64,000 nt of DNA from Desulfosporosinus youngiae DSM 17734 (lineage in GTDB: Bacteria > Bacillota > Desulfitobacteriia > Desulfitobacteriales > Desulfitobacteriaceae): NCBI RefSeq assembly GCF_000244895.1, contig NZ_CM001441.1:5236198-5300197 (forward strand), in the 5' to 3' direction. A program made the position numbers and the translations under genes. The notes beneath the pieces are model-generated. The model was not told where the DNA came from. It did not search any database and saw only the letters and a program-made list of their open reading frames with translations. This document shows, piece after piece, positions 19,082 to 43,294 of the stretch (positions are counted from its first letter, which is position 1; each line of letters starts with the position of its first letter).

Positions 19082-19652
19082 TGTTTATTTCCTCCTCTCT
19101 GATTTACATGGTAGATTCTAACAGATGTAGTCACGAATGTAAAGTTATGTCTCAAACCTAGCTAATGTTGCTTATATAGTTCCATTCTTTTTTCTTAAGA
19201 AATACTTACAAAGTTATGGATAAGTATGGATAACAGAGCATCTTGTTCCTTCGTAAAGATTTTTTCTACCTATAATATTATAATACCATTATTACTTCTA
19301 AGTTAAATTCAAGAATGTCAACCTAATGTAATTAATGGTAATATAACCAAAATGTTTGAAATGTAATTTATTGTTTAATATGTTAATCTCTATTTGTGGC
19401 GAGAAAATATTAACGCCAAAATCAAACTTTTATTCTTTTACTCCCTATGTTGCTCTAAAAAGTACCCACTGGGCTGATATATTTTCAGAGAAGGACGCTT
19501 CTGTTAAAATCCAGTGGAATATTTTTAGATAATGCGCAATGTCTAAACATTTAATTACTCAATAGGGAGGTGGGGGACGAAAGACGTCTCGCAGTAAAAC
19601 TTATAGTTATCAAATTAAAAAATTCCCAAAATTGAGAGGAGAAATTCACTAA
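19082..19652 (+). promoter_or_regulatory. Long AT-rich leader/promoter region of slpA
   Basis: No gene is seen. The region is AT-rich with several possible -10 boxes (for example TATAAT at 19271-19276) and none clearly paired with a -35. Its notable part is at 19511-19547: a stretch also present before slpB, including a 24-bp palindrome. About 105 bases of untranslated leader then separate it from the ATG, which has GAGAGGAG before it. Long, stable leaders are typical for highly expressed S-layer genes. Confidence 0.5.
19524..19547. promoter_or_regulatory. Palindromic element shared by both S-layer genes (slpA copy)
   Basis: Here the two half-sites are TTTAGATAATGC and GCAATGTCTAAA. The core TGCGCA and outer TTTAGA/TCTAAA are symmetric; two base pairs break symmetry. 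The same element, more perfect, lies before slpB at 31896-31919. Conservation stands out against flanks that differ between the two genes, which suggests a regulator site or core promoter part. Confidence 0.6.
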
Positions 19653-22600
19653 ATGAAGAGAACGAAAAAAGCCTTGGCTTCATTAGCAATCGCAGGTATG
19701 ACATTAAGCATGATTCCTTTTAATGTTTTCGCTGCTTCACCAGTTCCAACTCGTATTGCCGGTGTAACTGCTGAACAAACTGCTGTAAAAATCGCTGACC
19801 AAACTGGTTATACGGGTAAAGCAATTCTCGCATCCTCAACCTCTTACGGTATGGTTGATGCATTGACTGCTGGTCCTCTGGCTGCTTCCTTAAAAGCTCC
19901 TATATTATTGACCGGAGCTGGAGACATGCTGGATGCTGCTACCAAAGCTGAACTCACTAAACTCGCAGTTAAAACCGTCTATGTAACGAGCGGAACTGCT
20001 GTTATTAAACAAGGCGTTATCGATGAGTTAAAGGCCATGGATATCGAAGTTATTGAACTTGGCGGATTTGACCGTGCTGAAACGTCCGTCAACATCGCTA
20101 AGAAAATGACTGGAGTAAGCAAAGTTGCTATCGCTAACACCGTTCCAGACGCACTTTCTATCGCTTCAGTAGCATCAGCTGCTAATCAGCCGATCCTCTT
20201 AACTGACAAAGATGCGCTTCCTGCTAGCGTTGCTGACTACCTAGCAAGCGCTGGGGTTACAGCCAGTGATGTTATTGGTGGGACAGGCGTTATCAGTGAT
20301 GCAGTAGTAGCTGGACTCCCAGGCGCAACTCGTCACTTTGGTATGACTGCTTATGATACCAATAACCAAGTTATCCAAGACTTCGCAGCTGGACTTGAGT
20401 TTGACAATGTTTATGTTGCTAATGGCGTAACTGGTATCGATGCTCTTGCAGGTGCTCCACTTGCAGCTCAAACCAAATCCGCTATTGTCCTCACAGATGG
20501 AAAAACTGTTCCTGCTGCAGCTGCTTTCACATACAGCAAATCCTCTACTAGTAGTGTAGTTACCGCTCTCGGCGGTGAAGCTGTTGTTCCTGAGAGTGTA
20601 CGCGCTGGCGTTGCTGCTGGTGCAGTTACACCTGATTCGAATGAGCTGAAGATTGTATCTGTAAATGCACTTAACGATGCTAACAGCGTTCTCGAAATTT
20701 CATTCAGTAAGGCTATCACTAAGCTCGAAACATCAGATGTTGCAATTCAAAACTCTAACACATTAGCGCGCTATGGCGTCAAAAGTGTATTATTGTCTTC
20801 AAATGGTATGACAGCAACCGTTGAATTATATTCCCATGATGATGCTAACCAAGCAAATCCTGTACTTTCTTACGTTACTAATTATACCGTGACAGTAAAT
20901 GCTGATGGAACGAGTCTTAAGACTACATTCAACCGCCCTGCATATGTCAAGGAAAGAATTCTAGATGTTGACCCGAGTGGTCGTAAAATTCAAGTTGGAG
21001 CAGTAACAATCAATATTCCTAAAACTGTGAATTTTGATTATGCTGACGCGCTAGGCCGTAAAGCACGTGTATGGTATAACTCTTCCCGTGACATGGTAAA
21101 TATCGCATATGATGATGAAACAGTAGTTTCAGGTGGACTTGAAATTACTAAAAATCGAGCAGGTAGTAATTATGGAGAAATCAAAATTGACGGCACCAAA
21201 TACGATGTGGCTGAAACTGGCTTTAACTTCTATGTAAACGATTCAAGCACAACTTTCGGTAACGATGGCGATGAGTATGACTATGCTAGAGTGTTCTTTA
21301 ACAGTACCGGAGATGTTGAGCTAGTCCAAGCCTACATGTGGGATGATTATCTTATCGTTTCCGAAGTAGAGGAAACTGTAGCTGTCTCTTATGACGACAC
21401 TGAAATTAACCTTAAAGACTACCTCCTTGTTAAGGATGGCAAGCAAATCGCTGCTAGCGATCTAGATGAAGGCGACATCATTTACTTTGATGCTGATTCT
21501 AATGACGGAGATGGATTTGCGGTAGTTTACAACAATTCTGTTTCCGGTGAGATCGAAGATGTATTTAGCGCTGAAATCAGAATTGATGGAACAACCTATA
21601 ACTTTGCAGGTCTTAAGTATGGCAAGCCAACCCAATATCTAGATGGAGACGACTTTGAAGATGTTGACAGCGATGTAGCTGAAGAGTTCCAAGCTGGCGG
21701 AAGAGTTACATTGTTCTTAGACCATAAAGGCGATGCTATCTATCTTACTGGTGAGCAGGCTGCTGTGGCATCAAATAAAGCAGGTTTCCATTTAACTGAC
21801 GATGCAGTAATCTACTTTGCAAATAACGTAGATACTAGAGGAACAGTGGAGTTAGAAGGTGTTGATGGAGTAGGCGAAGAGCAATCCTACACCATCCGTA
21901 TCGATTCCCTAGACAATGTTACTGGAACCGATGGCAAGAAATATCAAGTAGATAAGTACTTCCCATCAAGCCCTGTCAGTACCGTTAAGATTAATAAGTT
22001 TGGACTAAATGCGGATCATGAAGTTGTTGCGTTGGATGCTAATAATCACGTAATTAAAGCTGATGGAACTGTTGATGCTAGTGGGACAACTTCTACCATT
22101 TGGAATAATGGTTATGGGATTATCGATCTTGATGATGCAGTAGACAACATTGTTATTGAGCTTAAGAAAAATGATAATGGCAAAGTTGTTGGTTTAGAAT
22201 TCATTACTGAGAACACATCATCAGCTCTTGGCGGTGATCCTTCAGTCAAATTGAGTGATAAGTTCATTTTAGGTTCTAAGCTGTTATCTAGTACTGTAGT
22301 ATTTGATGGGCATAATACTGGAGCATATGATCCAGATGCAGATGACATTACAGTAACTACTTGGGGAGATCTAAAAGATAAAGGCTTCAAGGTAGAGGAA
22401 GCTTCTTATTATGTGAATAGTAATAACGAAGTAAAATATCTGATTATCAAAGGAACAGATGCTGAAGATACTACTCCGGTCAATGCAGTCGTAACAAAAG
22501 TGTTACGTAACACTAAACTTGAAATCATTGAGTTGAATGTTTTAGTTGATGGTGTTAAGAAGACTTATACCGTGGATAAAGTTACGGACTCCGGTATCGT

Positions 22601-22916
22601 TAAAGGTTCCATTGTAGAGCTTCTAGTTAACGATGATAGCGGCATAGTTGCGGATATCAATGATAACGCACATCCGCGACTTGTTTCAGGTGTTGTCACA
22701 GATGTAGTAATTTCTACTCGTACAGTCCAAATCGATGGCACTGATTACACATTGGTATCTGACGGATCAGTAATCAATGCTAAAGATGTTAATGACATCT
22801 TAGTCAAAGCATTAAGAGATATTAAAGTCAATGATCGAGTAGAAGTCTCACTTGATGAGCAGGTACCAGGCGGTAGTCTCTTCATTGACCTTGTAAAAAT
22901 TATCCCAACTCCATGA
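19653..22916 (+). CDS. S-layer protein with three N-terminal CWB2 modules (slpA)
   Basis: 1087 residues. A signal peptide ends near VFA (residue 27). Three CWB2 modules follow (about 34-127, 137-223, 226-322), each with the PILLT-like strand and GG/GTAVI-like motif; in C. difficile such modules bind an anionic wall polymer. The remaining 760 residues are beta-rich and very acidic (for example DGDDFEDVDSDVAEE), with repeated short strands like Ig-type S-layer domains. Size, signal, acidity and long leader fit the main S-layer subunit. A paralogue of about 88-93% DNA identity in the segments compared lies inverted at 27912-31781. It lacks that paralogue's 200-residue C-terminal tail. Confidence 0.85.
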   Translation: MKRTKKALASLAIAGMTLSMIPFNVFAASPVPTRIAGVTAEQTAVKIADQTGYTGKAILASSTSYGMVDALTAGPLAASLKAPILLTGAGDMLDAATKAELTKLAVKTVYVTSGTAVIKQGVIDELKAMDIEVIELGGFDRAETSVNIAKKMTGVSKVAIANTVPDALSIASVASAANQPILLTDKDALPASVADYLASAGVTASDVIGGTGVISDAVVAGLPGATRHFGMTAYDTNNQVIQDFAAGLEFDNVYVANGVTGIDALAGAPLAAQTKSAIVLTDGKTVPAAAAFTYSKSSTSSVVTALGGEAVVPESVRAGVAAGAVTPDSNELKIVSVNALNDANSVLEISFSKAITKLETSDVAIQNSNTLARYGVKSVLLSSNGMTATVELYSHDDANQANPVLSYVTNYTVTVNADGTSLKTTFNRPAYVKERILDVDPSGRKIQVGAVTINIPKTVNFDYADALGRKARVWYNSSRDMVNIAYDDETVVSGGLEITKNRAGSNYGEIKIDGTKYDVAETGFNFYVNDSSTTFGNDGDEYDYARVFFNSTGDVELVQAYMWDDYLIVSEVEETVAVSYDDTEINLKDYLLVKDGKQIAASDLDEGDIIYFDADSNDGDGFAVVYNNSVSGEIEDVFSAEIRIDGTTYNFAGLKYGKPTQYLDGDDFEDVDSDVAEEFQAGGRVTLFLDHKGDAIYLTGEQAAVASNKAGFHLTDDAVIYFANNVDTRGTVELEGVDGVGEEQSYTIRIDSLDNVTGTDGKKYQVDKYFPSSPVSTVKINKFGLNADHEVVALDANNHVIKADGTVDASGTTSTIWNNGYGIIDLDDAVDNIVIELKKNDNGKVVGLEFITENTSSALGGDPSVKLSDKFILGSKLLSSTVVFDGHNTGAYDPDADDITVTTWGDLKDKGFKVEEASYYVNSNNEVKYLIIKGTDAEDTTPVNAVVTKVLRNTKLEIIELNVLVDGVKKTYTVDKVTDSGIVKGSIVELLVNDDSGIVADINDNAHPRLVSGVVTDVVISTRTVQIDGTDYTLVSDGSVINAKDVNDILVKALRDIKVNDRVEVSLDEQVPGGSLFIDLVKIIPTP

Positions 22917-23058
22917 ATATAAATTATTTTGTGTAAATGGAAATTCTACTTGAAAAAAACTTGGTTAAACTATAGGTGGCCCTTATCAATTGTGGAGGAT
23001 AAGGCTATGCTGGAGCGCAACCTGAGCATCTAAATTGGGTTCTGCCACAAAGAGAATT

Positions 23059-23078
23059 GGGGACCAGCAATGGTTCCC
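23059..23078 (+). terminator. Terminator after slpA
   Basis: Arms GGGGACCA and TGGTTCCC close a GCAA tetraloop (GNRA type, very stable) and are followed by TTTCTTATTTTCTTT. It lies 143 bases after the slpA stop. Confidence 0.7.
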
Positions 23079-23176
23079 TTTCTTATTTTCTTTGCAGAAT
23101 AAAGCGTAAAGCTCTGGGGCGAACCTCCAAAAAACTATATGACTAGTAAGCGGTGGAACAAATAGCGTGGCATAAA

Positions 23177-23219
23177 AAATTCGCCCAAATCTTCAGTCAA
23201 TGAAAATCTGAGCGAATTT
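23177..23219. terminator. Strong bidirectional hairpin at the edge of the IS66 remnant
   Basis: Nineteen-base arms (23177-23195 and 23201-23219) pair with only three G-U pairs around the loop GTCAA. It lies just inside the left end of the old IS66 element, after the small broken ORF. Confidence 0.7.
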
Positions 23220-23226
23220 ATCGTCA

Positions 23227-23474
23227 TTAGAAAAATCCTTCACTTGCAACATCCTTGATGTATTTATACTGCTTGCGGATCAACCTCTTGAATTGGTCAT
23301 CCGATAAATCATCGTACTTATTGGTTCCTTCTTCTACTAGATTCTCGGACCATCTTCCGATAGCGCTTTTTCTATCTCATAGGGAAAGTCCAGCCAATAA
23401 CTTATGCAATCGATTTCTGCATCTAAAAACGATTTCGTCATATCCATTATGTAGTTAATATTCGTCATCGCCAT
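23227..23474 (-). pseudogene. Broken small ORF downstream of the decayed IS66 transposase
   Basis: Reading starts at ATG 23474 (MAMTNINYIMDM...) and runs into a stop after FPYEIEKALSEDGPRI. Shifting frame near base 23345 restores a sensible continuation (NLVEEGTNKYDDLSDDQF... ending KDVASEGFF) to a stop at 23227. The whole would be about 80 residues, helical and charged. It starts 6 bases after the transposase fragment, so it was probably an accessory gene of the old element or of its relatives. Its function is unknown. Confidence 0.5.
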
Positions 23475-23479
23475 CCTAC

Positions 23480-24511
23480 TTATTTTCCTTCCTCAGCTTC
23501 CTTATTGGTTTCTTCGCATAACAGAATTCCGGCAACGAATCCGCCCAAGGCATGAAGCCTTCTAAATGACTCTGGCTTATTATAAAAATCAAGATTGAGC
23601 AGATTTCTAAATATATAGACTAGATATTCATAAGGGTCCAAGCCATTGGCTTTAGCAGTTTCTATGATGCTAACAAGTGCACTTGCTTCGGCACCCTGTG
23701 GGGTGTCGGAGAAGAGGAAGTTCTTTCGTGCTAAAGCTACAGCTCTTATTGAATTCTCACTCATATTATTTGAGATAGAATACGCCCATCCGACAGAAAG
23801 TTTTGTAAAGCTCTCCCTATGGTTCAGTGTATATCTGATGGCTTTCTTTAACGGTTCTTGATGGGTATTCACATTTTCGGCCCACGCGAAAAAGGCATTC
23901 AGAACAGGAATACTCTGTTCTAGACGCTTCCGTTTACGCTCCTTATGCGGAAGCTCTTTCCATTCCTTATTCAAGCTTAAAGATCTTAATCATAAGTAAG
24001 CAGCTTTTCGCGCATTCTTTCACACATTGGCTTCAGCCAGGCGGAAGCACACTGAATCACCCAGTTTGACATCATTGATCGGGTTAAGGCTATGCCCATA
24101 CGCAGCCCCCTTCTCCTGACGTAAAGTGGAACCGTTAAGGCATATTTTTGGTACATAATCCATGTCCACGCTTGTTGCGGAAGCAAGGGACCGTGGCATG
24201 ACGGGCACCGGAACGGGTGCTTTCTTAAAGACGGTATCGGGATAGTCTTCAATCACAAGAAGAAAAAGCACCAACGCAAATAGTAAAAGCACACTCTGGT
24301 TTTCATCAAAAAGATAGAGTTGCTCGTCACTATTGGGTGTTCTTTCGCTAGACGCGCCAAAACGCTGTTTGGCTGCCTGCAGAAGCGCCTGAGTCGAAGC
24401 TTCCACGTTATGTTCCAAAATTTCTATGCGTTTTTGTTTTAGTTCATTCTCTTCGCGAAGCTTCTTTTCTGATTCTTTGAGTTTAGAAAGCTCCTGCTCA
24501 AGGTAGATCAT
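23480..24511 (-). pseudogene. Decayed IS66 transposase (tnpC)
   Basis: Three fragments in different frames make up a shortened IS66 large transposase. The N-terminal part (from 24511) has the leucine-rich helical start and LYLFDE. A middle part (about 24252-23986) has WIMYQKYALTVPLY and SNWVIQCA. A C-terminal part (23974-23480) has SNNMSENSIRAVALARKNFLFS and AKANGLDPYEYL. The segment with the first catalytic acidic residues, seen in the intact copy as LHADETPVQVL, is missing. Frameshifts plus this deletion make it inactive. Confidence 0.8.
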
Positions 24512-24617
24512 TATCCGTCTTTACCCCTTTAAATCTTATCTTTTTTATACCGAAAATGCCTGAATGTTGCGATATTCAGTAATTTCAGGCATAAATAATG
24601 CTAGTTTCATGGTTGGA

Positions 24618-24956
24618 TCATAGCTTTCGCAGAACCTTTACCAGTTCTTCTAAGGTTACAGGATTAAAACCATCGGGTATGCCGATGCAATAGTCTCCAA
24701 ACGATAAGGAAAATTCCGCCTTGAGCGGCGTCGTTTCTTTCACACCGTTTTCACGTTTAGGGAGCAGAACCACTACCGCAAAGGGATTATCTCCTGTCTC
24801 TTTCTGTTCTTGAAGTTTAAACTTTCTGGCCCAATAATGATAAGCGGTTTTCTTCAGCCCGTTTTGAACACACCAAGCTTGGATACTAAGTCCACTTTGT
24901 CCGCATTCTTCAATGCGGTCTCTCCAAAGTTGTTCTTGGGCTAAATCTCTAGCCAT
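24618..24956 (-). CDS. tnpA: IS66 accessory protein TnpA of the decayed element
   Basis: 112 residues with the helix-turn-helix layout of IS66 Orf1 (QLWRDRIEECGQSGLSIQAW, CVQNGLKKTAYHYWARKFKL). It matches the N-terminal plan of the intact copy at 27064-27438. The frame is whole, but the tnpB gene expected after it is absent: only about 105 bases separate it from the transposase remnant. It is therefore a leftover of a dead element and probably has no function. Confidence 0.75.
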   Translation of the reverse strand: MARDLAQEQLWRDRIEECGQSGLSIQAWCVQNGLKKTAYHYWARKFKLQEQKETGDNPFAVVVLLPKRENGVKETTPLKAEFSLSFGDYCIGIPDGFNPVTLEELVKVLRKL

Positions 24957-25015
24957 AATAAAACCTCCTGGCTTCCAATATTCCTGTTAACAGGATACCA
25001 AAAGACAGAAGGTTT

Positions 25016-25023
25016 TTTCGAGC
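25016..25023. repeat. Left target-site duplication of the IS66
   Basis: TTTCGAGC directly precedes the left terminal repeat. The identical octamer follows the right terminal repeat at 27551-27558. Confidence 0.92.
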
Positions 25024-25087
25024 GTAAGCGTCAAATAAGTCGGTGGATAGAAAAAGGGCAAAAACCAGTATAAACTAAGTTTTTGCC

Positions 25088-26626
25088 CTATTTGCAAACA
25101 GCCTGTACGTCTGGACTCCACGGCAGATAATCTTCAAGAAATTCAGGGTATTGACCAAACTGCACACCGGGTAACTCTCTGAAAATGAAACAAAGATATT
25201 TATAGGGATTCAGACCATTGGCCTTAGCACTTTCAATCATGCTGTAAACAGCTGCACTGGAGGTTGCTCCTTTCGGGCTTCCGCTGAATAACCAATTTTT
25301 ACGTCCGATCGTGAAGGGGCGAATACTGTTTTCTGCCAAGTTGTTGGAGAGGGAGCAGTTTCCATCCTTCAGATAATTCATCAATTCCTGCTTATGGTTT
25401 ACCGCGTAATTTAGGGCTTCCCCCAATTTAGATTTAGGGAGAACCTTGTTCCTGTGGAAATCCACCCATGTCCAAAAGGCCTCCAAAACAGGTTGCTCCT
25501 GCTTCAGACGCTCGGTTTGTCGCACTTCTCTTGAACACCCTTCGAGAGCCTTCTCTTTCTCAAAGAGCTCATTACAGAATCGAATTCCATCACTTGCCAA
25601 GGTAGCTTCCGGACTATGGATATCTTTGGGCAAGGCATCGACGAAGTTCCTGCGAACATGGGCCCAACATAGGCATCTCGTAATTCCCTCTACCTTTTGG
25701 TAACCTGAGTAGGCGTCCGTGTGGAGGTACCCCTTAAATCCTTTGAGGAATTTCTGAGGGTATTTACCACTCCTGCCCGGTTGGTATTCAAAAATCCGGA
25801 TGGGATGCTCACAGTGTTTGCCCGTACTGTAGATCCACATGTAGGAATCCGTGGTGTTTTTTCGGCCCTCTTCGTTAAGAACTTGAACTGGAGTTTCATC
25901 AGCGTGTAGGTAATTCTCCGCCAAGAGCTTCTGGTGCATCCGCTGCAAAAGCAGGGTCAGCCAGTCTCGGGCTGCGACCATGATCCAATTGGCCATGGTG
26001 GCACGACTTAATTCAACGCCCAGCGTCTTCCACTCTTTTTCCTGACGGTAAAGAGGAAGGGCGTTGACAAATTTCTGATGCATCACCCAAGCTACCGTAG
26101 AAGGAGAGGCCATGGAATGTTGAATTACCGGCGAAGGTACGGGTGCTTTCTCCATGTAGGGCAAGCCATTCTTACGACAGCTGCGGCATTCGAACGTTTC
26201 ACGGTAAAGATCAATCACCCTGACTTTTGCAGGGATAAACTCAATTTCGGTGCGCATGAACTCTTCTCCTACTGAGACCAACGTCGTCTGACATTCTTCG
26301 CAGAACCGGTCATCTTCTAATAGAGTACAGAGCCGTTTTTCATGGGGAAGATCTTTCAAAAGTTCCTTGCGTTGACCGTTAAATTTCTTTCGCCGGTAAC
26401 CCTCGACTTGCTTGAGGTCTGGTTCTACAGCCTTGGGGTTAGACTCCGTTTCTGCTTCATCAAAAAGAGACATCTGTCCTAGGTCAAGGACGGATGTCTT
26501 CTCAGAGCTTCGACCAAAGAGTTTACGAGTCAGATGCTGAATGGTTTCATGAAGAAGTTTGTTTTCCTTCTCCAGTTCGGTGATGCGATGTTCAAGTGTC
26601 TTTATCGATTCCACTTCACTCATCAA
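25088..26626 (-). CDS. tnpC: IS66 family transposase TnpC
   Basis: 512 residues, full length. An N-terminal leucine-rich helix (about 10-50) and the segment ending FGRSSE come first. A zinc-finger-like region follows with CEECQ and CRSCRK (about 115-160). Then the DDE core starts with LHADETPVQV, followed by TDAYSGY and, near the C-terminus, SNNLAENSIRPFTIGRKNWLFS with its Glu. The family C-terminal segment ANGLNPYKYL follows. It catalyses cut and strand transfer of the element. No frameshift is seen, so it should be active. It is 85 bases after tnpB. Confidence 0.95.
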   Translation of the reverse strand: MMSEVESIKTLEHRITELEKENKLLHETIQHLTRKLFGRSSEKTSVLDLGQMSLFDEAETESNPKAVEPDLKQVEGYRRKKFNGQRKELLKDLPHEKRLCTLLEDDRFCEECQTTLVSVGEEFMRTEIEFIPAKVRVIDLYRETFECRSCRKNGLPYMEKAPVPSPVIQHSMASPSTVAWVMHQKFVNALPLYRQEKEWKTLGVELSRATMANWIMVAARDWLTLLLQRMHQKLLAENYLHADETPVQVLNEEGRKNTTDSYMWIYSTGKHCEHPIRIFEYQPGRSGKYPQKFLKGFKGYLHTDAYSGYQKVEGITRCLCWAHVRRNFVDALPKDIHSPEATLASDGIRFCNELFEKEKALEGCSREVRQTERLKQEQPVLEAFWTWVDFHRNKVLPKSKLGEALNYAVNHKQELMNYLKDGNCSLSNNLAENSIRPFTIGRKNWLFSGSPKGATSSAAVYSMIESAKANGLNPYKYLCFIFRELPGVQFGQYPEFLEDYLPWSPDVQAVCK

Positions 26627-26711
26627 CCCTAAATCCTTTGCGTTTATTACTACATTTATTGTAACATAAAAACGCCGGAAATTCCAGTAACCATGCTGGT
26701 TTTGGCCGTTT

Positions 26712-27074
26712 TTACACCGAAAAACAGCCTGTAGAATCCCACTTTTTCACGGCCTTGGGTTGATCGATGGACATCCCCTCCATAAGCCAGCGGAATTCTT
26801 GGCGGGTAATCCCGCGGACCGCTTCAGCATTCTTGGGCCATTGGAATTTGCTCTTTTCCAGTCGTTTATACAGAAGAACAAAGCCATCTCCTTCCCAATA
26901 GAGTGCCTTCAGTCGATCATGCCGACGACCGCAAAAGAGAAACAAACTGTTCTGGAACGGGTTGAGCTGGAAGTTTTGCTGAACCAAGGCTGTCAGTCCG
27001 TCGATGGACTTGCGCATGTCGGTATACCCGCAGGCGACGTAGATTTTATCGGCCTTAGAGAGATCACCGAGCAT
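26712..27074 (-). CDS. tnpB: IS66 family protein TnpB (Orf2)
   Basis: 120 residues with the conserved IS66 Orf2 signature: YVACGYTDMRKSIDGL near the start, then LFLFCGRRHDRLKALYWEGDGF in the middle, and the end LMEGMSI. It is needed for transposition in this family, though its exact biochemical role is unsettled. It overlaps tnpA by 11 bases. The older remnant has lost this gene. Confidence 0.93.
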   Translation of the reverse strand: MLGDLSKADKIYVACGYTDMRKSIDGLTALVQQNFQLNPFQNSLFLFCGRRHDRLKALYWEGDGFVLLYKRLEKSKFQWPKNAEAVRGITRQEFRWLMEGMSIDQPKAVKKWDSTGCFSV

Positions 27075-27438
27075 GATGGAGTGCCCTCAGAGTATTCTCG
27101 ATTAATTCTATCGATGCGGTGTTATGAATTTCCAGGATTATGGCATCCATACGCACTACGATAGCCGGTGACGATGATTCAATAGATTGGGGACTGACCC
27201 GGTTGACTTGGTCAAGTGGAAAAGAAACTGGCACGATTGAATTGTTTTCGGGTTGAAGTGATGGCAGAGCTTCGCAGGCGGCTGTACGGACTTTTTTCAA
27301 CCAATAGTAATAATTTCTCGGTATAATACTATTCTCAGCGCACCAGACAGCGACAGTCTGTCCACTGCTCCGGCATTCACGGACGATCTCAGTCCACTGA
27401 TTTAATCGGTAGTTACGGGTTGCTTCTCTGGTATCCAA
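27064..27438 (-). CDS. tnpA: IS66 family protein TnpA (Orf1)
   Basis: 124 residues. The N-terminal half is a helix-turn-helix region (YRLNQWTEIVRECRSSGQTV, AVWCAENSIIPRNYYYWLKK) typical of IS66 Orf1, likely binding the element's ends. The C-terminal half is variable. It is the first gene of the element, about 110 bases inside the right terminal repeat. Confidence 0.9.
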   Translation of the reverse strand: MDTREATRNYRLNQWTEIVRECRSSGQTVAVWCAENSIIPRNYYYWLKKVRTAACEALPSLQPENNSIVPVSFPLDQVNRVSPQSIESSSPAIVVRMDAIILEIHNTASIELIENTLRALHHAR

Positions 27439-27550
27439 CTCTAAACCTCCTTTGCAGTTTTTCCACTAACTCGAAAAACTGCAAAACTCTAATTTAGAGT
27501 ATTTCATAGTTTCAAATAGGTTTCTACACACTGTCTTATTGGACGCTTAC

Positions 27551-27558
27551 TTTCGAGC
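27551..27558. repeat. Right target-site duplication of the IS66
   Basis: TTTCGAGC is identical to bases 25016-25023, confirming a recent, unrearranged insertion. Confidence 0.92.
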
Positions 27559-27584
27559 CGCTATTTCATCCATCCACCGCTTAT

Positions 27585-27911
27585 GAATATATGGCTGAAA
27601 TGCTTAAATAGTGGCCGCCTATTACAAAGGACGAATATGACAACGATTGAAACCTACACCACTCATGAAAGATGGTGAATTATCATCACTTAAAAGAGTT
27701 TCTAAGGAGACTCTTTTTGAGTTTTTACTTCGGAGGCCTTTTCCGACCCAAGCACTAGTTGGCGGAGGAAGTCCGGTTGTACCAAATGAAATAACCTTGG
27801 CGCATTCATCGAAGTCGATAAGAAAGCCTCTCGCTTTAGCGAAAGGCTTTCTCGTAACTTTTGATCAATTATTCTTGTGAAATCAAGATTATAAGCAATT
27901 CTCTTCGAAAA
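27585..27911. other. Intergenic stretch downstream of slpB
   Basis: No gene is seen. A plus-strand terminator-like hairpin lies at 27692-27718 (AAAAGAGT/ACTCTTTT, then TTTTTGAGTTTTT), though no plus-strand gene precedes it. It may be a leftover from before the IS insertions. The hairpin at 27821-27852 serves slpB. Confidence 0.4.
27821..27852 (-). terminator. Terminator hairpin after slpB
   Basis: Fifteen-base arms AGAAAGCCTCTCGCT and AGCGAAAGGCTTTCT with one mismatch and a 2-nt loop, 60 bases beyond the slpB stop. The T-run is poor. Confidence 0.6.
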
Positions 27912-30900
27912 TTACTGCCAGTTTACACCGTTGAATGTCATTGTCTCTGGTACATAAGCGCTGCCAGCTGCGTCTTTCAATACGCCTGGTTTAGCCTTGA
28001 TTGTATCACCAAATGAAGCTCCAGTTACAACAAGTGTTACAACGCTAGCATTATAGGTAGCTGATGTAATAGTTACGGTACCATCGGCTACAAATTGGTT
28101 CTTAATCTCGGTAGCAGGAGGTATTGCCATACCACCAATGTATAGAGGAGCGCTGAATGTTAATACTAAGTCTGTATCATCAGCACTAACAAGTGATGCA
28201 GTTGGAGCAGCAGCTATAGCTGCATAAGTGATAGTAACCGTCAAGGTTTTATCATTTGCTCCAGAGACAGCACTAGATGCTGACAATGATCCTGGAACTG
28301 TAACGGCTCCAGGTCCAGCTCCAGTAAACGAGTGAGTAGCATCAGCTGTTAATACAACCGTTGCGGCAGGTGATCCTACTACAAAGTTACCAGCTGTTAC
28401 TCCTGCTGTCCAACTAATTGTTCCTGTATAACCTGTTCCTGCAGCTATTGTTGTTGCTGCTGCTTCACCAACAACTGGTACAGGTATAGATACTGTTGCA
28501 CTTGTTATAGGAGTTACTGCTGCCACAGTTGGAACTATTTTTACAATGTCAATGAATCTGCTGGCATTTGGTACTTGCTCATCAAGCGACACTTGTACGC
28601 TATCGCCAACTTTAATATCTCTTAAAGCCTTAACAAGAATGTCACTGACATCTTTAGCATTTAGTACAGATCCATCTGAAACTAACACGTAGTCTATCCC
28701 ATCGATTTGTACTGTACGAGTAGATATAGCAACATCTGTTACAGTTCCAGAAACGATACGTGGGCGCAGGTTCAAGTTAATATCCTCAACCTGGCCGTTA
28801 TCGTCATTAACTTTAAGAGCCACTAAGGAACCTTTATTGATACTGCTATCGGTCACTTTGTCAACGTTGTAAGTTTTCTTGACACCATCAACTAGAACAG
28901 TCAATTCTGTAATTTCTAGTTTAGTATTACGCAATACTTTTGTTACAACTCCGTTAACTTCGGTAGTGTCTTCAGCATCAGTTCCTTTGATAATCAGATA
29001 CTTGATTTCATTATCACTATTCACATAGTAAGTAGCTTCCTGTACTTTAAAGCCTTTATCTTTTAATGCTCCCCATGTAGTTACGACAATGTCATCAGCA
29101 TCTGGATTATACGTTCCAGTATCATGACCATCAAATACTACTGTACTGCTCAACAGCTTTGAACCATTCATGAACTTATCTGTCAATTTAACCGCAAGGT
29201 CGCCGCCAGCAACTGATAATGTGTCTGGGGTTATGAACTCAAATCCGACAACTTTACCACTATCATTTTTCTTAAGCTCAATAAGGCTATTATCTACAGC
29301 GCTGTCAAGATCGACAATCGCTAAGCCACCGTTCCAAGCTGTAGCAGTTGTTCCGGCTACTAAGTTTCCGTTCAGATCAAATGCCTGATTATTTTCATCT
29401 AGGGCTACAATCTCATGGTTTGCATTAAGCCCAAATTTATCAATTTTTAAAGTGCTGACAGGGCTTGATGGGAAGTACTTATCTACTTGATATTTCTTGC
29501 CATTAGTTCCGGTAACACTATCTAGAGAATCGATACGGATGGTGTAGGATTGCTCTTCACCCGCTCCATCGACACCTTCTAGCTCTACTGTTCCTCTAGT
29601 ATCGACACTGTTAGCAAAGTAGATTACTGCATCGTCAGTTAAGTGGAAACCGTCTTTATTTGATGCCACAGCAGCCTGCTCACCAGTAAGATAGATAGCA
29701 TCACCTTTGTGATCTAAGAACAATGTAACTCTTCCGCCAGCTTGGAACTCTTCAGCTACATCGCTGTCAACATCTTCAAAGTCGTCGCCGTCAAGATATT
29801 GAGTCGGCTTGTTGTACTTAAGACCTGCAAAGTTATAGGTTGTTCCATCAATTCTGATTTCAGCGCTAAATACATCTTCGATCTCACCGGAAACAGAATC
29901 GTTGTAAACTACTGCAAATCCATCTCCGTCATTAGAATCAGCATCAAAGTAAATGATGTCTCCTTCTTCCAGATCACTAACAGCGATTTGCTTGCCATCT
30001 TTAACAACGAGGTAGTCTTCAAGATCAATTTCGGTGTCATCATAAGAGACAGCTACAGTTTCCTCTACTTCGGAAACGATAAGATAATCATCCCACATGT
30101 AAGCTTGAATTAGCTCAACCTCTCCGGTACTGTTGAAGAACACTCTAGCATAGTCATACTCATCGCCATCATTACCAAAAGTTACACTTGAATCGTTCAC
30201 ATAGAACTTAAATCCAGTTTCAGCGAGATCATACTTTGTGTCGTTGATTTCAATTTCGCCGTAGTCGCTTCCTGCACGATCTTCAGTGATTTCAAGACCG
30301 CCAGAAACTACTGTTTCATCTTCATATACAATATTTACTAAGTCACGGTCTGAGTTATACCATACACGTGCTTTGCGGCCTAGTGCGTCACCATAATCAA
30401 ATTTTGTGGTTTTAGGAACATTGATTGTTACTGCTCCAATTTTAATTTTACGACCACTCGGGTCAACATCTAAAATTCTTTCCTTGACATATGCAGGACG
30501 GTTGAATGTAGTTTTAAGACTTGTTCCATCGGCATTTACTGTCACGGTGTAATTAGTAACGTAAGAAAGTACAGGATTTGCTTGGTTAGCATCATCATGG
30601 GAATATAATTCAACGGTCGCAATCAACCCATTTGAATTTAATACTGCACTTTTTACACCATAGCGAGCCAATGTGTTTGCGTTTTGAACTGCTACATCTG
30701 AAGTTTCAAGTTTAGAAATAGGTTTACTGAAAGTAATCTCAAGAACGCTGTTTGCATCGTTAAGAGCACTTACTGATAAAATTTTCAACTCATTTGTATC
30801 AGGTGTAACTTGGCCAGCTGCAACGCCAGCGCGTACGCTCTCAGGAACAACAAACTCGCCACCAAGAGCAGTAACTACAGCGCTAGCTGGAGATTTGCTG

Positions 30901-31781
30901 TAAGTGAAAGCTGCAGCAGCAGGAACTGTTTTGCCGTCTGTAAGAACGATAGGCGATTTTGTTTGAGCTGCAAGCGGAGCACCTGCCAGAGCATCAATAC
31001 CGGTTACGCCGTTAGCAACATAGACATTGTCAAACGCGAGTCCAGCTGCGAAATCTTTAATAACTTGGTTATTGGTGTCATAAGCGGTCATACCATAGTG
31101 GCGAGTTGCGCCAGGAAGTCCGGCTACTACTGTATCACTGATAACGCCTGATCCGCCGATAACATCACTGGATGTGATTCCAGCACTTGTTAAGTAAGAA
31201 GCTACACTAGCAGGAAGAGCATCTTTGTCAGTTAAGAGAATTGCTTGATTAGCAGCAGCAGCTACTGAAGCAATGGAGAGTGCGTCCGGAACAGTGTTAG
31301 CGATAGCAACTTTGGTTACGCCAGTCATTTTCTTAGCGATATTGACGGATGTTTCAGCACGGTCATATCCACCAAGAGCTTCAACTTCGATACCCATAGC
31401 TTTTAACTCATCGATAACCCCTTGTTTAATAACAGCAGTTCCGCTTGTTACATAAACTTTTTTAACTTCGAGTTTAGTGAGCTCAGCTTTGGTAGCAGCA
31501 TCTAAGGTGTCTCCGGCTCCGGTCAACAGGATAGGAGCTTTTAAGGAAGCAGCCAAAGGACCAGCAGTTAAAGCATCAACCATACCATAGGAGGTTGAGG
31601 ATGCGAGAACAGCAGTACCGGTATAGCCGGTTTGGTCAGCGATTTTTACAGCGGTTTGTTCAGCGGTTACGCCAGCAATACGAGTTGGAACTGGTGCAGC
31701 AGCGAAAACATTAAATGGAATCATGCTTAATGTCATACCTGCGATAGCTAAAGTAGCTAAAGCTTTTTTAGTTTTCTTCAT
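27912..31781 (-). CDS. S-layer protein with three N-terminal CWB2 modules and extra C-terminal tail (slpB)
   Basis: 1289 residues from the ATG at 31781, which has GAGAGGAG before it exactly as in slpA; the in-frame ATG at 31805 lacks one. Signal, three CWB2 modules and the acidic beta-rich body align with slpA over its whole length, to IVPT (IIPT in slpA). It then continues about 205 residues: a Thr/Ala/Val-rich Ig-like segment (VTITYAAIAAAPTAS region), then LVLTFSAPLYIGG, and the end TMTFNGVNWQ. The tail resembles bacterial Ig/SbsA-type repeats. Both genes look intact, so the cell could build mixed or alternate S-layers. Confidence 0.85.
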   Translation of the reverse strand: MKKTKKALATLAIAGMTLSMIPFNVFAAAPVPTRIAGVTAEQTAVKIADQTGYTGTAVLASSTSYGMVDALTAGPLAASLKAPILLTGAGDTLDAATKAELTKLEVKKVYVTSGTAVIKQGVIDELKAMGIEVEALGGYDRAETSVNIAKKMTGVTKVAIANTVPDALSIASVAAAANQAILLTDKDALPASVASYLTSAGITSSDVIGGSGVISDTVVAGLPGATRHYGMTAYDTNNQVIKDFAAGLAFDNVYVANGVTGIDALAGAPLAAQTKSPIVLTDGKTVPAAAAFTYSKSPASAVVTALGGEFVVPESVRAGVAAGQVTPDTNELKILSVSALNDANSVLEITFSKPISKLETSDVAVQNANTLARYGVKSAVLNSNGLIATVELYSHDDANQANPVLSYVTNYTVTVNADGTSLKTTFNRPAYVKERILDVDPSGRKIKIGAVTINVPKTTKFDYGDALGRKARVWYNSDRDLVNIVYEDETVVSGGLEITEDRAGSDYGEIEINDTKYDLAETGFKFYVNDSSVTFGNDGDEYDYARVFFNSTGEVELIQAYMWDDYLIVSEVEETVAVSYDDTEIDLEDYLVVKDGKQIAVSDLEEGDIIYFDADSNDGDGFAVVYNDSVSGEIEDVFSAEIRIDGTTYNFAGLKYNKPTQYLDGDDFEDVDSDVAEEFQAGGRVTLFLDHKGDAIYLTGEQAAVASNKDGFHLTDDAVIYFANSVDTRGTVELEGVDGAGEEQSYTIRIDSLDSVTGTNGKKYQVDKYFPSSPVSTLKIDKFGLNANHEIVALDENNQAFDLNGNLVAGTTATAWNGGLAIVDLDSAVDNSLIELKKNDSGKVVGFEFITPDTLSVAGGDLAVKLTDKFMNGSKLLSSTVVFDGHDTGTYNPDADDIVVTTWGALKDKGFKVQEATYYVNSDNEIKYLIIKGTDAEDTTEVNGVVTKVLRNTKLEITELTVLVDGVKKTYNVDKVTDSSINKGSLVALKVNDDNGQVEDINLNLRPRIVSGTVTDVAISTRTVQIDGIDYVLVSDGSVLNAKDVSDILVKALRDIKVGDSVQVSLDEQVPNASRFIDIVKIVPTVAAVTPITSATVSIPVPVVGEAAATTIAAGTGYTGTISWTAGVTAGNFVVGSPAATVVLTADATHSFTGAGPGAVTVPGSLSASSAVSGANDKTLTVTITYAAIAAAPTASLVSADDTDLVLTFSAPLYIGGMAIPPATEIKNQFVADGTVTITSATYNASVVTLVVTGASFGDTIKAKPGVLKDAAGSAYVPETMTFNGVNWQ

Positions 31782-31895
31782 GTAGTGAATTTCTCCTCTC
31801 GTCATTGGATCTCTTTCTTTGGGAAATGAACTATCTCTCTTTACCAGGACGTCTTTTTAGTCGCCCCTCACCCCCTTAAAATGTGTAGCACAATC

Positions 31896-31919
31896 TTTAG
31901 ACATTGCGCAATATCTAAA
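31896..31919. promoter_or_regulatory. Palindromic element shared by both S-layer genes (slpB copy)
   Basis: Half-sites TTTAGACATTGC and GCAATATCTAAA match in 22 of 24 positions to their own reverse complement. The spacing to the start codon (about 115 bases) is close to that of the slpA copy. On the slpB strand it is preceded by GTGGAATACTTT, also conserved at slpA. Confidence 0.62.
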
Positions 31920-32076
31920 AGTATTCCACAGAATAAACGGGAGCGTCCCCCCTAAGGATGACGGTTATTCATCCCTCCTGTGGCATACCATTTAGAACGC
32001 ATGGGAAATGAAGAAACCACAAAAAGGTCTATATTAGCTATATATATTCTTCGCCATAGCCAATATTCCTGCTTGC

Positions 32077-32124
32077 TGTCCGATTTTTTTTAGGGGACTG
32101 ACACTAGCCTTATCCCATCGGACA
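32077..32124. repeat. Stem-loop, possible REP-like element
   Basis: Eight-base perfect arms TGTCCGAT and ATCGGACA enclose 32 bases. It lies in a non-coding gap. One copy only in the window. Confidence 0.35.
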
Positions 32125-32385
32125 AGTTTCCAATTTTACTGGTTCTAGTTTACACTAAAACCTTCTAGTTTTCCACCATTTAGTCAAAAATATACTGACT
32201 TCTCATGGGAATATATGAAGTATAGCATATTATTTGACTCTAATCATGAAGTTTTTGTGGAGTTTCAACAAATAATTTATTGAGATGCTTGGTGCTTTAC
32301 CAAGCTATCATGCTTAAGTTATGCAATCAATCCGTGAATTTCGGACTACTAAATTTCAATGCACATGAGATCAGATTGTTTATGC

Positions 32386-33975
32386 CTAATACCCTGCGAA
32401 GCTTAGAATCCCTCGATATATTCCCTGGGCAGCTTTTTTTTGAAACTCCGGTGAGGTTAAAAGAGCCTCTTCGGTTGGGTTAGAAAGAAAACCAAGTTCC
32501 ACAAGGACCGCAGGCATTTCTGTATTCTTGATTACATAGAACGCAGCATCCTTGACTCCCCGGCTGGGTAAGCCGAGCGCTTGAACCAGCTCACTCTGAA
32601 CGCTCGCCGCTAAGGTCTTGGATTGCGCACCCACCGGGTTCTGTGAACTATAATAAGTTGTCGTCCCCGAGGTTTCAGGATTACTGAAAGAATCATTGTG
32701 GATACTGATAAAAAGGTCTGCCTTTGTGTCGTTGGCTATTTTAGTCCTTGCTTCAAGGTCTGCCCGTTCTGAATAGGTTCCCTCAGCCGGTGAAACGTCT
32801 GTGCTGCGGGTCAAGATAACCCGTGCTCCCGCAGAACGCAGCAAACTTGCCAGATCGATCCCCACCGGAAGGGTATTACTTTTCTCATACCTCCCGGACA
32901 CACCTTTTGCGCCTGGATCAGGCCCGCCGTGCCCTGGGTCTACGACAATCGTCAGATTTGCCAAAAGGTAGGGGGGCTGCACAGTTCCATCTAACATACC
33001 TCTGACTTTATCTGTGATTACAGCCGCTCCTCCGATAATCACAACACGGAGAGGGCTTTCCGCCGGCGTGGATAAGACGGAATAAATGGCACCCGGCAAG
33101 ATATCTCTTTGGGTCAGAACGATGCCTGCCCGCTTTTTAGCGGCCAGACCTCCTGCCGCGAGAGCGTCGGGAAAATTTTCACCTGTTACCATATACGTTG
33201 TTTGGGAAGGCAGCGCATCCCGGGCAAACTCATAGATTTCGGCGGCTGTATCATAGCGGTCGTTTCCGAATATTCGCTCCACGCTCTGCAGAAGGTCTAA
33301 GATCTTAGAGGATACCACGGCTTCCCCGCCGACAACAATCGTATGCAAATCCCCTTCTTTCTGAAAATCATTGATTGCTTGTTTAGTTGCGCTGGGCATC
33401 GTATGTGACATTGTCAAAAGAATCGGAGTCTCGGTCGCCCCTGCGTAGGCTGAAATAGAGAGCGCATCAGGGAACTGTTCTCCGCTGGCTAAGATGACTT
33501 GGCCCTTTGACCCTACGCGTTCGGCGACCTTTTGGGCTGTTTCAAATTGATCATACCCATAAATTCGTTCCGGTTGGTCTAATCCGGCCTTTAAGATGTC
33601 CTCCTCAACCTTTTGGCTTAAAGCGGCTGTTCCTCCGAGAAGGATGACGTTCTCCGCCCCCAGACGTTTGATTTCTTGCATAACCTTCTCGTCAACTCCG
33701 CCGACCGGGGTCAGGAGAATCGGTGCATCCAGCTGATGGGAAAGCGGTGCCGCTACTAAAGCATCCGGAAAATTGTCGCAGTTAGCGAGTATGACGGTCT
33801 CTGCCTTTCTCCAGCCTTCTATAGAGACGTTGATCGCGGTATCAATCTGACGCATCCCATAAATTCTTTGTGTGTCTAAGGATAATGGAGTGGCTTGGAC
33901 CGGACTCTGAAAAGCCACCAAAAATCCGAAGCCTACTAACACTATCCCTATAAGTCTCGATTTTAACTTTGCCAC
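32386..33975 (-). CDS. CWB2-anchored N-acetylmuramoyl-L-alanine amidase
   Basis: 529 residues: signal peptide (about 1-28), three CWB2 modules (about 37-325; strands such as APILLT, TPILLT and the FPDAL motif), then an Amidase_3 domain (341-529). Zinc and catalytic residues are in place: His349 in DPGHGG, Glu364 in YEKSNTL, His426 in SIHNDS and Glu493 in VELGF. It cleaves the bond between muramic acid and the stem peptide. The architecture mirrors C. difficile Cwp6-type amidases, though here the binding modules precede the enzyme. The GTG start follows AAGGAG. Confidence 0.93.
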   Translation of the reverse strand: MAKLKSRLIGIVLVGFGFLVAFQSPVQATPLSLDTQRIYGMRQIDTAINVSIEGWRKAETVILANCDNFPDALVAAPLSHQLDAPILLTPVGGVDEKVMQEIKRLGAENVILLGGTAALSQKVEEDILKAGLDQPERIYGYDQFETAQKVAERVGSKGQVILASGEQFPDALSISAYAGATETPILLTMSHTMPSATKQAINDFQKEGDLHTIVVGGEAVVSSKILDLLQSVERIFGNDRYDTAAEIYEFARDALPSQTTYMVTGENFPDALAAGGLAAKKRAGIVLTQRDILPGAIYSVLSTPAESPLRVVIIGGAAVITDKVRGMLDGTVQPPYLLANLTIVVDPGHGGPDPGAKGVSGRYEKSNTLPVGIDLASLLRSAGARVILTRSTDVSPAEGTYSERADLEARTKIANDTKADLFISIHNDSFSNPETSGTTTYYSSQNPVGAQSKTLAASVQSELVQALGLPSRGVKDAAFYVIKNTEMPAVLVELGFLSNPTEEALLTSPEFQKKAAQGIYRGILSFAGY

Positions 33976-36640: not shown

Positions 36641-36943
36641 CTTTTTCACGCCTTTCCTTACGTCTGATGTCGATCTGAACCCGTTCATATGTTTATTCGA
36701 CAAATTATGCAGCATTCCTTTTTGCTCCAACCCCTTATTCTACCTATGTTATATTTTGGATGGCTTTAATCCTTCCTGTGAGGAAGGATTTTAAGTTGTT
36801 TTAAAGAATAATTAGGAATAAGAGTTCATTTTTGCGAATTAGTTCAGTATGTTTTGTCGCAGCGGCTTCACGCAAGCGAGTTAATATACTCCTTGCCGGT
36901 TAACAGAACTTAAAATTACGTAAGAAAGAGGTTCGGTTGATTA
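36641..36943. promoter_or_regulatory. Divergent promoter region between protease and GH18 genes
   Basis: It holds the starts of two oppositely oriented CWB2 genes. A perfect hairpin with 10-bp arms AATCCTTCCT/AGGAAGGATT and a 3-nt loop lies at 36768-36790, followed on the plus strand by TTAAGTTGTTTT. A terminator in a divergent gap is odd; it may attenuate the GH18 transcript or be a protein site. AAGAAAGAGG precedes the GH18 start. Confidence 0.45.
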
Positions 36944-39157: not shown

Positions 39158-39560
39158 CTAAAACTCAAAAACCGTACTCAAATTGACGACAAGGTCCGGG
39201 AAAATCGACACCTTGACCACGGCCGTTTCGCTATACAGTTCGGGTCTTCCATATCGTGCATTTTCCTGCAATATGAATACACTTACAAGCTTCGTGTCAG
39301 GCTCTACTATCCAATACTCTTTCACTCCAAATTTCTCGTACATATTAAATTTTAAGAGTCTGTCGGTCTTGGCTGTAGAGGGGGATATTATTTCGATAAC
39401 CAAATCAGGTATTCCAAAATAGCCCGTTCCCTTTAATTGACTCTTATCGCAAATGACCACTAAATCTGGTTGACAGACATTGGTAACATCTTCATCCGCT
39501 GCTTCCCCATCTGAGAGTCGTAAATCAAAGGGTGCAGCAAATATTTCAAGAAACTTCACA
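39158..39560 (-). pseudogene. Truncated Uma2-type nuclease
   Basis: The residual frame matches the intact relative at 43295-43873 from FAAPFDLRL to the end (PDLVVICDKS, GIPDLVIEIISPST, YEKFGVKEYWIVEPDT). The first 60 or so residues, with the usual YTYADYL and DDERWEIIDG segments, are missing. Just upstream another frame holds a trace (LELLLQ) of the lost part, so small deletions and a frameshift removed it. The open frame continues artificially to 39730 across the promoter of the next gene. The nuclease core motif region survives, but a functional protein is unlikely. Confidence 0.7.
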
Positions 39561-39595
39561 CTCTGGCTTGAAGCAGCAGCTCTAAGCCTTCCTTG

Positions 39596-39623
39596 TTGCT
39601 TTGTGCATCTCATCTTGTATAAT
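39596..39623 (+). promoter_or_regulatory. Sigma-A-type promoter for the small transporter operon
   Basis: TTGCTT (39596-39601), a 16-base spacer and a perfect TATAAT (39618-39623), about 21 bases before the TTG start at 39645. Confidence 0.55.
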
Positions 39624-39644
39624 ACTAATTGAGGTGGAACGCTT

Positions 39645-39989
39645 TTGTTAATATTGCTGACAATTTTTAATTCAGTTCTCATGGTAACGGGGCAAACCCT
39701 TTGGAAGTTAGGGGCAACCGGAAAAGACATCCATAGTCTCAGTCAACTCTTACGCCTTTTTTTAAGCCCTTATGTGATTTCAGGCCTCTTTGTGTATGCC
39801 TTTGCTTCCGTGCTTTGGATTTATATTTTAAATAAAGGCGAGTTAAGCTATGTTTATCCAATTCAGAGTACCGCCTTTATTTTTGCCCTTATTATAGGGA
39901 CAACGATTTTTAAAGAGCAGCTGACACCCACGAAAATCGTCGGGGTGTTAGTGATTTGCCTTGGGATCATTATTATCACACGAAAGTAG
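39645..39989 (+). CDS. Small EamA/SMR-type transporter (ArnE/ArnF-like)
   Basis: 114 residues with four membrane helices and the SMR/EamA pattern (VTGQTLWKLGA, YVYPIQSTAFIFALIIG, FKEQLTPTKIVGVLVICLGI). Proteins of this size near glycan genes often flip lipid-linked sugars (ArnE/F-like); drug export is the other option. The TTG start has GAGGTGG eight bases before it. The next gene starts 9 bases after its stop, and the third follows closely, forming an operon with a GNAT protein and a polysaccharide deacetylase. Confidence 0.75.
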   Translation: MLILLTIFNSVLMVTGQTLWKLGATGKDIHSLSQLLRLFLSPYVISGLFVYAFASVLWIYILNKGELSYVYPIQSTAFIFALIIGTTIFKEQLTPTKIVGVLVICLGIIIITRK

Positions 39990-39998
39990 GCACATATC

Positions 39999-41093: not shown

Positions 41094-41108
41094 ACCAAGG
41101 AGAAATCA

Positions 41109-41933: not shown

Positions 41934-41940
41934 TACAAAA

Positions 41941-41974
41941 AAACGAGATCGAAGGTCTTCCTGCGATCTCGTTT
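41941..41974. terminator. Bidirectional terminator
   Basis: Perfect 11-bp arms AAACGAGATCG and CGATCTCGTTT with a 12-nt loop, flanked by A-rich and T-rich runs. It separates convergent genes ending at 41933 and 41975 and reaches the stop codon of the latter. Confidence 0.8.
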
Positions 41975-43272: not shown

Positions 43273-43294
43273 TTCAGCCACCCCCGTTATACTA

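Follow-up and report, generated by a model that had tools for sequence, protein, structure and literature searches.

Inverted S-layer genes of Desulfosporosinus youngiae with separate leaders and probably homogenised coding regions

Two homologous surface-layer (S-layer) genes that face each other across a nest of insertion sequences raise the question of whether they form a switch or are kept alike in some other way. The case considered here is a stretch of 64,000 nucleotides (nt) from Desulfosporosinus youngiae DSM 17734 (contig NZ_CM001441.1, positions 5,236,198 to 5,300,197; hereafter the window), in which slpA and slpB lie tail to tail around nested IS66 elements. An initial annotation of this DNA described the two genes as near-identical and proposed S-layer switching by inversion. 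From a comparison with related genomes, we consider it probable that slpA and slpB are ancient, separately driven paralogs whose coding parts have been homogenised by ectopic recombination.

The two large open reading frames (ORFs) in opposite orientation are borne out by their coordinates and by two inverted arms, 19634-22055/29379-31800 (88% identical) and 22083-22910/28527-29354 (76%), and the stop codons are 4,995 bases apart. The homology along the whole of slpA also held, and it extends from about 150 nt 5' of the start codon to the slpA stop. The tail found only in slpB is likewise real, at about 205 amino acids (aa); its best match among 43 other S-layer genes is at 28% (E about 1e-5). 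The description as near-identical was too strong, because DNA identity is 83.6% (3,432 columns) and no exact run exceeds 85 nt (the next are 74, 68 and 62 nt). The proteins are 86% identical, and 153 of 472 four-fold sites differ. Read from these sequences, the similarity is far above chance, yet the pair appears to be old.

The probable start codon of slpB is at 31781, which would give a protein of 1289 aa instead of 1297. Both proteins carry three stretches of the Pfam family PF04122 (CWB2) at one end, and CWB2 is the only Pfam family over the cut-off in either. In an AlphaFold model of SlpA (mean predicted local distance difference test score, pLDDT, 71; predicted template modelling score, pTM, 0.39), Foldseek matches the anchor to Cwp6 and SlpH of Clostridioides difficile and the surface region, weakly, to the folds of Bacillus anthracis Sap and of SbsC (TM-scores near 0.1). 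The two are best described as CWB2-anchored S-layer-type proteins, with lattice formation predicted. The genome itself (5.66 Mb, a single contig) has 29 matches to slpA, most of them in the CWB2 part, and therefore a large set of CWB2 proteins.

The upstream regions, or leaders, carry the first half of the argument. We surveyed 44 S-layer genes over a set cut in 18 genomes (relatives carry G numbers, and W is the window genome). The gene G021_x fell under the identity cut and was used only in the slpA identity comparison and the surface tree, being left out of the anchor tree, and the G023 contig (L160) holds no S-layer gene over the cut. G021_P1 is without surface sequence, and the leader of G017_Pna has only 96 nt. 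There are two leader classes. P2, defined by slpB-like upstream DNA beside an amidase gene, is represented by one gene in 18 of 18 genomes. P1, the hand-assigned slpA-like class, is represented by another gene in 16 of 18, through long matches in nine genomes (the window included), moderate ones in G022 and G016, and short ones in G001, G002, G018, G010 and G008. Contrary cases are G006 and G017, in which no P1-class gene occurs in the DNA examined. A tree of 19 leaders (nine P1 and ten P2, from the ten best-covered genomes) separates the classes at 100/100, with slpA in P1 and slpB in P2, and the leaders are therefore orthologous groups older than these species.

The slpB leader is kept over about 340-490 nt (73-90% identity) in 22 of 28 other genomes of the genus. 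Upstream of the RNA element discussed below, it may form an additional helix (TGTCCGA/TCGGACA). The TATGTT of a promoter-like site before slpA is kept in P1 leaders. In the region scan such sites were near the chance number (32 found, 28.6 expected), as were terminator-like hairpins (12 against 10.4). The same scan found no sigma-70 consensus before slpB, where 2.2 were expected; a TGnTATACT conserved in P2 leaders is a possible -10 site. The ribosome site GAGAGGAG is conserved before both genes. With a class-specific conserved leader and this ribosome site, neither gene looks like a promoterless copy, and both are probably expressed.

The coding regions disagree with the leaders. In their surface regions, the proteins of slpA and slpB share 84% identity, and at most 44% with any other species' gene examined, the best outside match being a fragment, G021_P2 (44%). 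The same holds in G013, whose pair is 80% identical within the genome and 58% identical to other species, and in G001 (75% against 65%); G011 is borderline, with 75% within the pair and 70% and 75% outside. Surface data exist for 15 genomes, and in the remaining 11 another species' gene is closer to one or both members of the pair. Conservation is much higher in the anchor: that of SlpA is 74-91% identical to the compared genes, G021_x (23%) aside, and the anchor tree does not separate the window pair from G021 (support 54/33). The surface tree puts slpA and slpB at a distance of 0.18 from each other and of 1.55 from G021; this tree drew a long-branch warning from the program, and we used its distances, not its joins.

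A similarity plot along slpA locates the change. In the interval starting at -250, slpA shows 79% similarity to the P1 genes of G021 and G012, against 67% to slpB; the two tie from -100 through the anchor; and beyond about nt 1,100 slpB alone remains close, with 81-96% DNA identity over nt 1100-2300. Paralogs are more alike within than between genomes while their flanks keep orthology, which is the pattern of concerted evolution. On this sequence comparison, the leaders appear to have stayed in place while the surface regions were exchanged. Joint selection on the two proteins, for instance as parts of one mixed lattice, could produce likeness with no recombination at all. Both are of the CWB2 S-layer type, and proteins of one lattice may co-evolve. 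Under that explanation one would expect neither such high DNA identity when protein identity to the sister species is 44%, nor the 2,516-nt identical block of G011, and we regard joint selection as very improbable.

That block belongs to recombination tracts between paralogs, which occur in relatives. G011 has two tandem S-layer genes (L061/L062, C1:5514409-5523896) with the identical block at their 3' ends and diverged 5' parts. In the convergent inverted Px/P2 pair of G001 (Px being an extra copy of neither leader class), four-fold differences number 26 of 303 in a 5' tract (codons 61-571) and 109 of 196 outside it. A scan for shared segments (200 shuffles, seven pairs, uncorrected) gave p 0.005 for the pairs of G013 and G011 and for the G001 Px/P2 pair. 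In G013, whose layout is like that of the window, both genes end in one tail (94.7% identity across the final 150 aa). As a separate observation, two tandem P1-class S-layer genes in G002 (L147) differ at one of 650 four-fold sites.

The initial annotation had expected recombination to move the slpB-only tail to the slpA promoter. The shared tail in G013 shows that a P1-class gene can receive such a tail, as a copy and not as a swap.

A simpler history would be a single duplication, in which slpB was copied once into the place of slpA in an ancestor of the lineage, with no continuing exchange. The homology spans the stretch from about -150 to the slpA stop, as such a copy might. Anchor four-fold differences are also similar within the pair (about 31%) and between slpA and the G021 gene (about 30%, 49 of 161), and one old event would therefore be enough for the window. 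Even so, the copy would have had to replace the DNA 3' of the P1 leader by homology, which is itself recombination; the mosaic tracts in three relatives point to repeated exchange, and G013 is a second, separate case. We give the single duplication a small but real chance of being correct.

The reading that we prefer would run as follows. Two old S-layer genes, each under its own leader (P1 for slpA, P2 for slpB), would recombine ectopically through their homology, most probably by gene conversion that starts in the conserved CWB2 anchor. The surface region would be copied from one gene to the other, and the coding parts would evolve together. A structured RNA before both genes probably controls the mRNA, through attenuation, translation or stability. 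We infer both recombination as the cause of the likeness of the window pair and the direction of copying. The separate histories of leader and coding region would then offer a clean view of ectopic recombination in a surface gene without an invertase. Few proteins of a cell are as abundant as those of the S-layer, and the keeping, diversifying and dosing of two copies therefore matters.

The surroundings of the genes bear on this reading. Across the genus the common frame is a lipoprotein gene, the slpB-like gene, genes for three CWB2 proteins (an amidase, a subtilase and a GH18-family protein), and an EmrE-like gene. In the window, G013 and G021 the second S-layer gene lies left of slpB and convergent with it; G007, G012, G004, G009 and G011 have it right of the block (reversed in G011); and in G003, G022, G016, G002, G018, G010, G008 and G001 it is elsewhere, on another contig or far away. 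In the species tree W is sister to G021, and G013 groups with G004 and G007; the convergent layout is therefore not the product of one recent event. Searches with the slpA surface region gave matches in 11 of 29 genomes of the genus, its own counted.

Among genomes with surface data, both of those with convergent neighbours (the window and G013) are homogenised; of the other 13, G001 is, and G011 is borderline. G021 also has the convergent layout, and its two anchors group together (Shimodaira-Hasegawa-like approximate likelihood ratio test 99). It is suggestive, from two lineages only, that the convergent layout favours homogenisation. Two G021 contigs, C34 and C4 (L075, L141), both end inside S-layer genes, as assemblies are expected to do at a repeat. 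A G021 protein at L074:8741-11689 is akin to the surface region of slpA (35% across the core) and has no CWB2 in Pfam; the slpA-type surface part may have another anchor there.

Several points weigh against homogenisation by recombination as the explanation for the window. The pair shows no significant mosaic (p 0.144 in the segment scan described above; p 0.061 in an earlier test for clustering of low divergence), and no recent exchange or long identical tract is detectable in it. Homogenisation in the window would therefore be old, and it is deduced from trees, with no tract to be seen. For G021, the only sister, the surface sequence is a mere fragment, several of the compared genomes are drafts, and the P1 class was assigned by hand, in five genomes on short matches alone. 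Finally, G001 and, at the border, G011 are homogenised without convergent neighbours, and proximity is therefore not the sole cause.

The initial proposal of phase variation was that recombination of the inverted genes flips a 5-kb segment and swaps the 3' ends. Inverted homologous S-layer genes, as in invertible switches, are indeed present. Exact runs as long as those in the arms are probably enough for some RecA pairing, paralogs share tails in G013 and G011, and the missing sigma-70 consensus before slpB would suit a silent copy. Invertible S-layer switches have a long identical recombination region, and none was found here beyond the 85-nt run. Each gene has its own class-specific conserved leader, and the pair lacks a significant mosaic. 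The marker genes do not flip either: in each of the 12 relatives with both genes on one contig, the GH18 and EmrE-like genes share a strand, and four of these 12 have inverted S-layer genes on both sides of the marker block; the amidase and subtilase genes are opposite to the GH18 gene in 17 of 17; and in G001 and G002 the gene that lies between the convergent pair points the same way.

Nor did the searches made bring up a nearby recombinase. In the window, Pfam (16 proteins or fragments) finds none besides parts of IS66 transposases, and serine recombinases were not searched genome-wide. The one family that was, the tyrosine recombinases, has 17 matches in the genome, the nearest gene being 318 kb outside the window; in C. 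difficile a recombinase gene need not adjoin its switch. A 21-nt imperfect inverted repeat with arms 202 nt apart in the slpB leader resembles, at first sight, the switch of CwpV, a phase-variable member of the C. difficile CWB2 family. It was rejected as not conserved and chance-like: the core of its upstream arm recurs in two of 18 P2 leaders, and such a repeat arises in nine of 100 shuffles. Five pieces between slpA and slpB have a match in G013, three in reverse and two in the same direction; they are not read as an inversion because they lie inside IS66 copies. An inversion switch at slpA/slpB is thus unlikely, and we allow it only a slim chance.

The IS66 nest between the 3' ends is confirmed by its boundaries, target duplications and Pfam matches. 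The inner copy is flanked by target duplications TTTCGAGC at 25016-25023 and 27551-27558. Three of five ORFs scanned in the nest match IS66 families (TnpB, DDE transposase), and the two TnpA-like ORFs are without a Pfam match. TnpB, the DDE transposase, terminal inverted repeats and the 8-bp duplication together place the element in the IS66 family. DNA like the IS66 remnant also occurs downstream of the gene in the slpB position in G007, G013, G009 and G012. No link between the nest and the S-layer genes was found except position, and we take the nest to be a bystander.

The more novel part of the findings is the structured RNA that precedes both genes, a covarying element of about 105 nt. 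An alignment of all elements with MAFFT misaligned P1 against P2, and alignments by class were used instead, together with a covariance model (R1) built from 15 P2 elements, that of slpB included. Column-shuffle z-scores, from 30 shuffles and with almost no spread in places, were set aside as evidence. In its own genome R1 finds both leaders and an opposite-strand match (E 0.97) that overlaps the slpB element, with 150 of 1,961 first-look candidates scored. The model matches 36 of 45 genomes of the family (E 1e-3), 51 of 73 of the order (E 1e-4), none of nine in the class outside the order, and 10 of 348 sampled across the phylum, all ten within the order; the wide searches used stricter filters than the narrow ones. 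A 21-letter core pattern occurs in 46 stretches of a collection with one genome for each of 84,980 species, under record titles naming Desulfosporosinus, Desulfitobacteriaceae, Peptococcaceae, Gracilibacter, Acididesulfobacillus, Paradesulfitobacterium, Dichloromethanomonas, and a Clostridia or Bacillota bacterium. Rfam has no match over the gathering cut-off in 17000-40000, and the three sub-threshold matches in the leader stretches are to unrelated families (E 0.37-2.5).

Among 50 distinct sequences, 15 of 28 pairs have two-sided changes, and two-sided cells number 132, against 40.6 in shuffles (500 in all, none reaching 132) and a maximum of 45 in slid controls; these counts come from alignments fitted to R1 and so lean towards it. 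The 39-row alignment A5 counted two opposite-strand matches of the palindrome and one weak match, all absent from A6. Helices 1-3 carry the covariation, and the TTTAGA...TCTAAA hairpin has no two-sided change. When TTTAGA is paired instead with an upstream TCTAAA, 94.5% of cells pair. This alternative helix is almost invariant: one of its eight pairs has a two-sided change, a level reached by 461 of 500 shuffles, and its seven two-sided cells are above all shuffles, while one slid control has eight. Both window elements fold better than shuffles, and their predicted folds form the upstream pairing.

As deduced from these alignments, the element can be described as a branched domain with a GGACGC loop, in which TTTAGA has two possible partners: pairing with the 5' TCTAAA would close the domain, and pairing with the 3' TCTAAA would form a hairpin. 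These alternatives could switch S-layer synthesis; the covariation of the alternative helix is weak, and the TTTAGA switch is therefore put forward as a hypothesis. Within the element, at window positions 31896-31919, there is a 24-bp near-perfect palindrome, TTTAGATATTGCGCAATGTCTAAA, which could be a DNA site for protein binding.

Part of the order-wide R1 matches were checked for downstream genes, and outside the main survey these are of the CWB2 S-layer type in 28 of 32 loci examined. The first 18 loci gave 15 ORFs that are like slpA/slpB from the N-terminus (just 54 aa in G020, at a contig end), two loci that break off too early to judge, and one weak match, described next; the further 14 gave 13 such ORFs and, in G047, a protein with a CWB2-like part at its C-terminus. 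A weak R1 match in G027 (L198, C114:8102-8203), which is without the 3' hairpin, stands before a non-S-layer gene. Within the genus, the element is present by motif in 35 of 43 genes with enough leader. The eight genes without the motif are G016_P1 and seven of the eight extra Px copies, among which G022_Px has a weak R1 match. G016_P1, which lacks the element, and G011_Px, an extra copy that has it, are contrary cases.

The element marks one to three S-layer genes per genome, and most Px copies are without it; the latter could be silent donors for gene conversion. Our tentative proposal, which we hold at somewhat less than even confidence, is that of a new class of cis-regulatory RNA dedicated to the S-layer genes of this order, with the TTTAGA switch and with Px copies as silent donors. 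The element is a concrete candidate for the control of S-layer synthesis across an order of anaerobes.

The features described are collected in the table below. Three Uma2-family genes (putative restriction endonucleases) also lie in the window, at 39158-43873 on the minus strand.

Table 1. Positions of the S-layer genes, their leaders and neighbouring features in the window.
Feature	Position	Strand	Remarks
slpA	19653-22916	+	1087 aa, CWB2-anchored S-layer-type protein (predicted), P1-class leader
slpB	27912-31805	-	slpA paralog, 1297-aa ORF, P2-class leader
slpB-only 3' tail	27912-28526	-	about 205 aa, no Pfam match
P1-class leader of slpA	19320-19652	+	conserved with P1 genes of other species
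P2-class leader of slpB	31806-32300	-	conserved with P2 genes of other species
Promoter-like TTGAAA-17-TATGTT before slpA	19356-19384	+	consensus scan and conservation
Structured RNA upstream of slpA (P1)	19450-19550	+	R1 58.8 bits; fold z -3.1
Structured RNA upstream of slpB (P2)	31893-32000	-	R1 123.7 bits (one of the 15 sequences building R1); fold z -4.7
Terminator-like hairpin after slpA	23059-23078	+	consensus scan alone
Symmetrical hairpin after slpB	27692-27717	. (scan lists + only)	consensus scan alone; putative role for slpB
Inner IS66	25024-27550	-	2,527 bp, tnpA/B/C-like ORFs open, 8-bp target duplications on both sides
Outer, older IS66 remnant holding the inner copy	23146-27584	-	boundaries and Pfam
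CWB2 amidase	32386-33975	-	adjoins slpB-like gene; position marker in relatives
CWB2 subtilase	34082-36730	-	second gene of the conserved block
CWB2 GH18-family protein	36944-38998	+	third gene of the conserved block

How does this locus compare with known systems? Among the matches listed from open-licence PMC text, none dealt with paired S-layer genes in Desulfosporosinus or with the RNA element, and term searches gave no match in the searched parts of PMC2864571 or, for S-layer, of PMC6372793. In Campylobacter fetus, sap inversion lets one promoter serve several silent cassettes; there as here, surface-layer genes are rearranged by recombination, but the window has two fixed leaders. The slpA/slpB pair of Lactobacillus acidophilus likewise comprises two S-layer genes in one short segment with recombination between them. 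There, according to the section of PMC6015585 that describes Boot 1996, slpB is silent and inversion interchanges the active and silent genes, whereas both window genes have their own conserved leader and no flipped arrangement was seen in relatives.

Among cell-wall proteins of C. difficile, the CwpV switch depends on the tyrosine recombinase RecV and on imperfect inverted repeats of 21 bp that are separated by 195 bp, as stated in the portion consulted of PMC2784873. The window genes share with CwpV the CWB2 family; phase variation is a feature of CwpV, and in the window the repeat of the slpB leader is unconserved and chance-like, with no tyrosine recombinase nearby. The S-layer cassette types of C. 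difficile combine a conserved CWB2 part with a strongly variable exposed part (PMC8881574, in the part consulted), and in this they resemble the genes described here. In those cassettes slpA varies between strains, whereas the window has two paralogs of a single genome with a common surface type.

For the RNA element, the nearest published idea that we found is the SLH motif, which is described in the excerpt consulted of PMC6429828 as occurring in Synergistaceae, Clostridia and Negativicutes, as lying before SLH-domain genes in about 60% of cases, and as a proposed riboswitch. Both are structured RNAs upstream of surface-layer genes. The element described here, unlike the SLH motif, precedes CWB2 genes and is found in one order; the two were compared by that published description only, and kinship between them is possible.

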